A DNA stretch of 64,000 nt from an uncultured Pelagibacteraceae bacterium (GTDB lineage: Bacteria; Pseudomonadota; Alphaproteobacteria; Pelagibacterales; Pelagibacteraceae): contig CACHBR010000003.1 in NCBI GenBank assembly GCA_902578115.1, positions 1 through 64,000 of the forward strand. The letters are read 5' to 3'. The notes beneath the pieces are model-generated. The model did not search any database and was not told the DNA's origin. It saw nothing but the letters and a program-made list of their open reading frames with translations. Below, in pieces: positions 55,120 to 56,781 of the stretch. How positions within the stretch are numbered: position 1 is the stretch's first letter; each line of letters opens with the position of its first letter. The translations under genes were made by a program, and so were the position numbers.

Positions 55120-56049
55120 ATGAAAATTTTGGGAATTGGTAATGCAATTATAGATGTTATTTGTAGAGTAGACGATAATTTCTTAAAAAAAAATGATTTA
55201 ACTAAAGGTACAATGAAGCTTGTAAATCAAAATGAATTTAAAGCTCTTACTTCTGAACTAAAAATCGAGGAAACTATCTCTGGAGGATCAGTTGCTAATT
55301 CCATGGTTGGACTTTCACAATTAAAAAATGAGGTTGGCTTTATAGGAAAAATAAATAACGATAAATTAGGAAATGAATATGAAAAAGGTCTTAAAAAAGA
55401 GAAAGTAAAATTTTTTTATTCTAAAAAGGATGAGGATGCTCCGACTGGAACATGTCTGATTTTAATCACACCTGATTCGGAGAGAACTATGTGCACTTTT
55501 TTAGGAATTGCAGGAAAAATTAATGAAAATGATATTAATATTGAAGCAATTAAAAAAAGCGAAATCACATTTTTTGAGGGATATCTTTGGGACGAAGGAC
55601 ATCCAAAAAAAGCTTTTGAAAAAGCAATAAAAAGTTCCAAAAAAACTGCTATGTCTCTTTCGGATAAATTTTGTGTTGATAGACACAAATCAAATTTTTT
55701 AAATTTAGTTAAAAATTCATTGGATATAACATTTGCAAATGAACAGGAAATTTTGTCCTTAGTTGATACAAATAGTTTTGAGGAAGCAGTTTCTTTCTCA
55801 AAAAATCTTGGAAAATTAGTAGTTATTACAAGAGGCGAAAAAGGAAGTATGGCCATAAAGAATGAAGAGGTTTTTGAATTTGGTGTCCAAGAAAATTTAG
55901 AAATTGTTGATTTAACTGGAGCAGGAGATCTTTTTGCAGCTGGATTTTTGCATGGTTATATAAATAATTTTTCGCTCAACGAATGTTTAGAAAAAGGAAC
56001 TGAAATGTCATCTAAGATTATTCAAAAAATTGGAGCTAGACTTTCTTAA
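55120..56049 (+). CDS. PfkB-family carbohydrate/adenosine kinase
   Basis: Ribokinase-fold sugar or nucleoside kinase (309 aa). The substrate motif GGSVANSMVGLSQL lies near residue 55, LITPDSERTMCTFLG contacts substrate, and the catalytic PfkB signature 2 is DLTGAGDLFAAGFLHG with the general-base Asp. The closest resemblance is to adenosine-kinase-like proteins of alphaproteobacteria; the substrate is not certain. Follows nth by 1 bp; its last 14 bp overlap the convergent ArfA-like ORF. Confidence 0.88.
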   Translation: MKILGIGNAIIDVICRVDDNFLKKNDLTKGTMKLVNQNEFKALTSELKIEETISGGSVANSMVGLSQLKNEVGFIGKINNDKLGNEYEKGLKKEKVKFFYSKKDEDAPTGTCLILITPDSERTMCTFLGIAGKINENDINIEAIKKSEITFFEGYLWDEGHPKKAFEKAIKSSKKTAMSLSDKFCVDRHKSNFLNLVKNSLDITFANEQEILSLVDTNSFEEAVSFSKNLGKLVVITRGEKGSMAIKNEEVFEFGVQENLEIVDLTGAGDLFAAGFLHGYINNFSLNECLEKGTEMSSKIIQKIGARLS

Positions 56050-56137
56050 TTTTTTTTCTGTTATAACTCCCTTTTCCTTTTTTTGGTTTAATAACTCTCT
56101 TTCGGTACTTATTTGTCATTAAATCTTTAGCGAACAT
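56036..56137 (-). CDS. arfA: ArfA-like alternative ribosome-rescue factor (33 aa mini-gene)
   Basis: Small ORF reading MFAKDLMTNKYRKRV then IKPKKGKGSYNRKKIKKV (33 aa). The core RV-x-K-x-KKGKGSY-x-RK matches the diagnostic segment of E. coli ArfA (RVEKNKKGKGSYMRK) at nearly every position. ArfA recruits release factor 2 to ribosomes stalled on non-stop mRNA; its basic tail enters the empty mRNA channel. An in-frame TTG at 56152 would add LKKRN and overlap the stop of the upstream winged-helix gene (TTGA). The 3' end overlaps the kinase gene by 14 bp. Much shorter than E. coli ArfA (72 codons), lacking its hydrophobic C-terminal tail. Confidence 0.75.
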   Translation of the reverse strand: MFAKDLMTNKYRKRVIKPKKGKGSYNRKKIKKV

Positions 56138-56148
56138 ATTTCTTTTCT

Positions 56149-56781
56149 TCAAAGTGAATAACCTTTCTTGGAATTTTTGATAAAACTATTATCTTTAAAT
56201 TGATTTTTAATTTTTTGCCTAAGCCTGTAAATATGAGTTTCCACAGTATGCGTGTCAGTATCAGCAGAATAATTCCAAATATTTTTTAATATAAATTCTC
56301 TACTTAATGGTTTTGAAGATGCATGAAGATTTTCAATAAAATTAATCTCCTTTTCAGTAATTTTTAAATACATATTATTTTTTTTAAGGGTTCTTTCATT
56401 TTTGTCTAAAATATAATCTTTAATACTTATTAAAGAATTATTTTTAAATTCAAATTTTTTACAAACGTTAATTACATCTTGATTAAACTGAATTAGATTT
56501 AATGGTAGTTTTATAATTAGTGAGTACATATCTTTTGATTGTGAAGTTTTTCCATTTTCTTGAATTAGAATTTTTGGTTTATTAAAATGTAAAGATGATA
56601 ATTTTTTACTATTTTCAATATCAGTAATTATTGCATTAAAATTTTCTTGTTTTAAATCAATTAAGTTTTTATGATCCAGATACAAATTAAAACTAAAAAA
56701 AGATTTTAGTTCTTCTAGTGCATTCAAAATATTTTTATTGCAAAAACATATTATGTTAATATTGTAATTTTCTTTATGCAT
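56149..56781 (-). CDS. OmpR-type winged-helix regulator with degenerate receiver domain
   Basis: 210 aa. The C-terminal ~75 residues are a clear OmpR/PhoB winged helix: LKITEKEINFIENL, LSREFILKNIWNY, the DNA-recognition stretch TDTHTVETHIYRLRQKI, and a KKGYSL ending. The N-terminal 110 residues have receiver-like length and alternation, with one Asp in NAIITDIEN at the phospho-acceptor position and Lys-Leu-Pro (IKLPLNL) where Lys-Pro is expected, but the paired acidic residues after strand 1 are missing. Probably phosphorylation-independent. No sensor kinase adjacent. Its start codon is half of a palindrome shared with the YkuD gene. Confidence 0.82.
   Translation of the reverse strand: MHKENYNINIICFCNKNILNALEELKSFFSFNLYLDHKNLIDLKQENFNAIITDIENSKKLSSLHFNKPKILIQENGKTSQSKDMYSLIIKLPLNLIQFNQDVINVCKKFEFKNNSLISIKDYILDKNERTLKKNNMYLKITEKEINFIENLHASSKPLSREFILKNIWNYSADTDTHTVETHIYRLRQKIKNQFKDNSFIKNSKKGYSL

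Follow-up and report, generated by a model that had tools for sequence, protein, structure and literature searches.

The ribosome-rescue factor ArfA is thought to acquire its shape on the ribosome. In the passages of Demo et al. (2017; PMC5378476) used here, residues 31-48 of E. coli ArfA occupy the mRNA channel, Leu19, Leu24 and Phe25 bind RF2 at Trp319, Val198 and Phe217, the substitution of Ala18 by Thr is inactivating, and the protein is active when cut at Asn47 but not when cut shorter; the substitution of Ala18 by Cys is described as tolerated. E. coli arfA is controlled via a non-stop mRNA (2021 review, PMC8012679, in the section used here). Such a message, with its hairpin and hydrophobic tail, is usual in the described ArfA members, for which it is regulatory and not defining. 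In the portions of the same review and of a survey (Callan, 2024; PMC11633108) that bear on its range, ArfA is confined to Beta- and Gammaproteobacteria, to which the survey adds the Bacillus subtilis group; among 15,259 genomes searched with DNA profiles, the survey gives arfA in none of 2,376 Alphaproteobacteria. Within the open-licence PMC literature, as far as its searchable text extends, the only ArfA found in a SAR11 context was that of pelagiphage HTVC027P (PMC12753301).

Two other short rescue peptides are close by description. ArfT of Francisella has approximately 40 residues, a KGKGS-like stretch, a normal message and tmRNA in the same organism, as in SAR11; in the part of the article used here (PMC6299226), its authors report low similarity to ArfA and the use of RF1, and it is likened to the SAR11 peptide by description. 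BrfA of Bacillus is an RF2-dependent rescue peptide with a convergent mode of action, set apart here by the unrelated sequence and terminator-truncated message that its authors describe (PMC6881298, in the part used). Here we describe a real, lineage-wide, shortened ArfA in SAR11, which belongs to a class described as being without ArfA.

The open reading frame and its conserved junction

The locus lies in the window, the whole stretch of 64,000 nucleotides that was analyzed, and comprises the following features:

56036-56152, minus strand: arfA-like gene, 38 codons, TTG start, TAG stop; PF03889 above cut-off, under selection
56093-56143, minus strand: codons 4-20 (RNMFAKDLMTNKYRKRV), corresponding to the RF2-facing E. 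coli ArfA residues 13-29 in a gapless profile alignment
56051-56083, minus strand: codons 24-34 (KKGKGSYNRKK), basic tail, predicted to insert into the vacant mRNA channel
56149-56152, minus strand: TTGA, overlap of the arfA start codon and the winged-helix stop codon, read from the sequence
56149-56781, minus strand: winged-helix gene (OmpR-type C-terminal domain), directly upstream; PF00486, 49.5 bits
55120-56049, plus strand: PfkB-family kinase gene, convergent; PF00294, 149.3 bits

The RF2 contact residues used for codons 4-20 and the role of the tail in codons 24-34, a segment assigned by alignments to E. coli ArfA, come from the passages of PMC5378476 cited above. With TTG read as Met, the ORF at 56036-56152 translates as MKKRNMFAKDLMTNKYRKRVIKPKKGKGSYNRKKIKKV. 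A preliminary description of this DNA had placed on the minus strand a 33-codon ORF with the motif RV-x-K-x-KKGKGSY-x-RK, overlapping the 3' end of the kinase gene and directly following the winged-helix gene. We found the ORF at exactly 56036-56152 with this motif in its peptide; the last 14 nt of the convergent kinase gene overlap the arfA 3' end (56036-56049), and four nucleotides are shared with the winged-helix gene, the probable source of the arfA transcript. The length of 33 codons is true from the internal ATG (residue 6). However, 38 codons from the TTG are more likely, because relatives keep the residues ahead of this ATG and an NTG start overlapping the upstream stop; R4 and N5 are invariant in the 13 rows of the SAR11 alignment A1. 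As to the upstream protein itself, its C-terminal domain is an OmpR-type output domain, no receiver domain was detected with Pfam in its first 130 residues, and it diverges faster than the adjoining kinase in most relatives (51% versus 83% at L002).

Since this AT-rich DNA has many short, Lys-rich ORFs, we considered a chance ORF or a conserved non-coding element. From 30 extracted ORFs, four of other lineages or lengths (L003, L004, L016 and L020) and one duplicate were removed. Over codons 2-33 of the 25 distinct sequences left, pN/pS was 0.18 (pS 0.61, pN 0.11), and none of 200 column shuffles gave a value as low (shuffle mean 0.79, minimum 0.36). The forward frames 1 and 2 contained stops in 25/25 sequences. 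The arfA ORF thus evolves under purifying selection: the frame is kept among relatives and the substitutions are typical of coding DNA, the two points on which the preliminary description had let the gene stand or fall.

The position of the gene is also conserved. At all 30 loci L001-L030 (the window's own and 29 relatives), the arfA start overlaps by four bases (NTGA) the stop of an upstream ORF of at least 60 codons, the start being TTG in 18, ATG in 7, GTG in 4 and CTG in 1. The same overlap was observed at 19 of 20 loci of L066-L087 (repeats L068 and L070 omitted) and at 9/20 of L088-L107. Homologues of the winged-helix and kinase genes stand on either side of arfA at 29/30, 21/22 and 18/20 loci of these three sets, respectively; loci having none of the window's neighbours are L016 (the genome of L068) and L048 and L049 of genus g11. 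The substitution pattern, the closed alternative frames, the conserved position and NTGA start and the PF03889 family score presented below make a chance or non-coding origin exceedingly improbable, and it was ruled out.

Comparison with E. coli ArfA and the partner release factor

The Pfam ArfA profile (PF03889) matched the window peptide at 30.9 bits (cut-off 25.5), and this was the single match in a six-frame search of its own genome (958,940 bases, 82% complete; E 5.7e-7), which upholds the ArfA assignment first made from the motif. No match was observed for the peptide in NCBIfam, with PF00472 (the GGQ-bearing RF-1 domain of ArfB) or with DUF7230 (PF23876). As a single sequence, it matched E. 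coli ArfA in the PDB weakly (E 0.016) and was alignable only from residue 22. Profile A6, built from 14 KGKGS-type members (SAR11, viral and other alphaproteobacterial), recovered six distinct ArfA sequences (E 8e-9 to 3e-8) and nothing else from the PDB when E values up to 1 were admitted, and its alignment to E. coli ArfA was gapless over E. coli residues 14-44. Therefore, residue n of the window peptide corresponds to E. coli residue n+9; when the alignment is extended without gaps, the peptide covers E. coli ArfA 10-47.

The SAR11 peptide and E. coli ArfA (PF03889; PDB 5h5u, 5mgp, 5u4i, 5mdv, 5mdw, 7oj0) have the KKGKGSYxRK tail in common, and N14, L20, an aromatic residue at 25 and R26-x-R28-V29 are kept. 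In contrast, the SAR11 peptide has 38 residues instead of 72; it is without E. coli residues 1-9, including the rRNA-contacting Thr7 and Lys8, and with nothing after position 47 it is indeed devoid of the hydrophobic tail, as the first reading of the locus had it. Many relatives in other genera have 34-36 codons and stop near E. coli position 44, short of the reported E. coli minimum. A Lys is aligned with E. coli Ala18, and at the patch 19/24/25 the SAR11 peptide has Asp/Lys/Tyr, so that one of three residues is kept and two are charged.

With Asp and Lys at Leu19 and Leu24 of the patch behind the RF2 dependence of E. coli ArfA, the altered patch might be an altered partner surface, and the peptide an ArfA relative partnered by RF1 or by either factor. 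ArfT offers a precedent, being a 40-residue peptide with a KGKGS-like stretch that uses RF1 or RF2 (PMC6299226, in the part used). We regard this reading as unlikely, since the aromatic residue at position 25 is kept (Tyr16), whereas ArfT as described in that part has no hydrophobic residue there, and since the own genome, which has both RF1 and RF2, carries the three ArfA-contact residues in RF2 and an RF1 without the Trp. The equivalents of Val198, Phe217 and Trp319 lie in the RF2 motifs VHRLVRISPF, HTSF and GWG, with contact positions counted from the SPF motif and the Trp placed by motif only. Another reading starts from the close identity to E. coli ArfA being confined to the tail, with the RF2-facing half altered: a ribosome- or RNA-binding peptide of ArfA descent that has ceased to recruit release factors and might serve, for instance, as a plug of empty mRNA channels or as a decoy drawing in other factors. 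This appears very unlikely, because the first half is as strongly conserved as the tail (A1 shows no variation at N5, A8, D10, L11, K15, Y16 and R19) and is the part common to the KGKGS-less versions described below.

The own genome also encodes tmRNA (RF01849, 227.8 bits) and SmpB (176.3 bits); thus ssrA and prfB, which the preliminary description had proposed to look for, are both present. In 61 genomes, 17 of which reach 90% completeness or more, PF00472 marked no more than two genes in each; the open frames listed for these genes had at least 223 residues, and hence we saw no ArfB in this set. With tmRNA-SmpB present and no ArfB seen, rescue would rest on trans-translation and ArfA. Concerning expression, SAR11 arfA differs from E. 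coli arfA in its coupling to the winged-helix gene, its normal stop codon and its lack of a hairpin: the fold z of the message was -0.02, and 97 of 200 shuffles folded at least as well. Since the stop codon is normal and folding is no better than in shuffles, E. coli-type non-stop control is not evident; we rejected it and propose translational coupling instead.

Overall, we consider it probable that this is a genuine arfA encoding a minimal ArfA, an RF2-dependent backup of tmRNA-SmpB translated by re-initiation. As its normal stop codon implies, the peptide need not come from a truncated non-stop mRNA, and would probably be made by re-initiation after the winged-helix gene. On ribosomes that have stalled where a broken mRNA ends, it would bind with its basic tail KKGKGSYNRKK inserted into the vacant mRNA channel. 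Its first half would bring in RF2 and open it, and the GGQ motif of RF2 would then free the unfinished protein without a stop codon. In cells without detected ArfB, such a peptide would back up tmRNA-SmpB.

Distribution in SAR11, Alphaproteobacteria and viruses

PF03889 matched in 30 of 61 genomes (the own genome and 60 relatives), 26 of them over the cut-off; by group, matches were found in 27/31 genomes of the genus, 3/6 elsewhere in the family and 0/24 in the sister family. Using profile A1, built from 13 SAR11 sequences, we observed matches in 283/397 genomes of the SAR11 order, and in 114 of the 151 that are at least 90% complete. As deduced from genome labels, the 283 split into 283/344 in the own family and 0/53 in the sister family. 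Across the class, A1 matched in 12/385 genomes, nine of them outside the own family. Among GTDB contigs, at least 407 stretches were confirmed, and the best 80 of these were all titled Pelagibacteraceae, Pelagibacter or Pelagibacterales. Such a profile search had been suggested with the preliminary description, which pictured the gene as kept in this streamlined genome; the gene is real, but far from being a peculiarity of one genome it is found in most sampled SAR11-family genomes. A small number of the 283 matches were weak (G635, 3e-6; G753, 2e-5; G673, 8e-4) and may be the other, KGKGS-less version; next to the kinase gene, neither G635 nor G673 showed an arfA.

In total, 61 own-family genomes, some of them complete, are without arfA. 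Four genus members without it (59-80% complete) have no kinase match either, so we attribute these absences to a locus missing from the assemblies and rejected a genuine loss in them. In ten other own-family genomes, some single-contig (G032, G356, G444, G445, G450, G457, G497, G508 and G549 of genus g3, and G034 of g5), the search around the kinase gene detected no arfA; the loss is real here, because the winged-helix gene still stands beside the kinase. In eight genomes of the sister family (f2), the surroundings of the kinase, out to 1.5 kb, showed neither a winged-helix nor a YkuD gene.

Viruses carry relatives as well. In IMG/VR, they are encoded in at least 254 confirmed stretches of marine viral contigs; the best 80 of these (L220-L299) have the GKGS tail in 80/80, the scan patterns themselves favouring KGKGS. 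No homologue of the five SAR11 chromosomal neighbours was found near the viral gene in the available flanks of these best 80. At L229, the viral gene comes after genes of phrog_894 (endolysin) and phrog_2524, an integrase is on the contig of L221, and at L253 the gene lies between ORFs that we take to be T4-type clamp-loader genes. PHROGs 20887 and 37108 (function unknown) recognize not only the window peptide (E 6e-6 and 0.003) but also several phage ArfA-family peptides, and could be re-annotated as ArfA-family. Of 16 phage records listed with a homologue, two name ArfA or a rescue factor; among five records inspected, three label it a 'hypothetical protein' and two assign no separate gene to it. 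Pelagiphage HTVC027P gp30 (PMC12753301) and Citromicrobium phage RXM g10 (PMC8953757), each as given in the part of the article used, belong to the ArfA family and have the KGKGS tail, like the SAR11 gene. The phage ArfA is phage-borne, whereas the SAR11 host gene sits at a conserved chromosomal junction.

ArfA-related peptides without KGKGS

Profile A2, made from KGKG-less alphaproteobacterial peptides, gave matches at E up to 0.01 in 25 genomes among the 372 of the class; three belong to the own family and 22 do not. One of the three is G032, a single-contig SAR11 genome with no arfA at the usual place; its peptide is MSKKRKKVKKKNPMAKLLSSPMLRNKIVKNKKKIYNRKKFKLGNE, and the gene overlaps the end of a neighbouring gene, presumably a glutamine amidotransferase. 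Profile A3, which includes the G032 peptide, matched in 27 of the 61 own-family genomes without the KGKGS type (type 1) and in 23 of 35 sister-family genomes searched. The loci are as follows:

L321, 1477-1614, minus strand: KGKGS-less type-2 locus; also L331-L354, L361 and L362
L355-L360, L366, L367 and L390-L404: third tail type (NKKKIQERKRVKIKV and the like), sister family f2

In 64 type-1 genomes (G635 included), the A3 search found no second peptide gene: 45 had one match, which was the type-1 gene itself (identified 26 times by sequence and 19 by coordinates), and 19 had none. The contrast of 26/61 (the weak G585 omitted) with 0/64 gave a Fisher p of 2e-10, uncorrected for kinship. The type-2 peptide of genus g3 is under selection, with pN/pS 0.11 for 22 distinct sequences and 0/200 shuffles as low. 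In the sister family, the peptide gene comes immediately after an ORF with the C-terminus VDGG, presumably a short-chain dehydrogenase, at 15/15 loci checked.

With the type-2 profile, the six ArfA sequences rank first in the PDB, although weakly (E 0.04-0.11). One of 10 type-2 peptides (A4) matched PF03889, at E 0.052 and below the cut-off, and none of six sister-family peptides (A5) did. Because of this weak PDB match and the failed PF03889 cut-off, we call type 2 ArfA-related, not ArfA. Comparison with profile A6 gave scores of 42.6 for A4 and 45.0 for A5; as Lys-rich peptides could match by composition, column-shuffled controls were run (200 each) and reached at most 18.0 and 14.6, respectively. 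Two of the 10 type-2 peptides also matched DUF7230 (PF23876), whose function is unknown. Its alphaproteobacterial members have R-N-P-x-A-x-x-L...Y-R-x-K-V...Y-S-R-K in common with the ArfA-like peptides but, unlike the window peptide, no KGKGS. Those at L302-L305 resemble ArfA without KGKG. DUF7230 was rejected as the main alphaproteobacterial form, with only 4/372 class genomes.

From these sequence comparisons we tentatively suggest, as a joint reading that is plausible but doubtful as a whole, that SAR11 usually carries one short ArfA-class peptide in interchangeable versions, within a wider family that might include DUF7230. The versions would have in common the first half N-P-x-A-x-x-L...[RK]-x-[RK]-[VI] and would differ in their mRNA-channel tails (KGKGSFKRKK, KKIYNRKK, KKKIQERKRVK); they would swap across genome sites, behind unrelated genes, with relatives carried by many marine viruses. 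Against it, 46 of 96 genomes without type 1 have neither peptide (34/61 own-family and 12/35 sister-family), among them the near-complete G356, G444, G445 and G450; these genomes may hold more diverged ones. If the reading is true, ArfA would represent a single tail type within a broader family of peptides that recruit release factors, and Alphaproteobacteria would not be without ArfA.

As for the SAR11 gene itself, an ArfA carried by most of the family's sampled genomes would extend this ribosome-rescue pathway beyond its known range and would show it surviving strong genome reduction. The peptide would be a natural minimal ArfA, narrowing down the residues that matter, and it makes testable which release factor an ArfA with an altered patch uses, whether one tail can stand in for another and for what reason phages have copies of their own.
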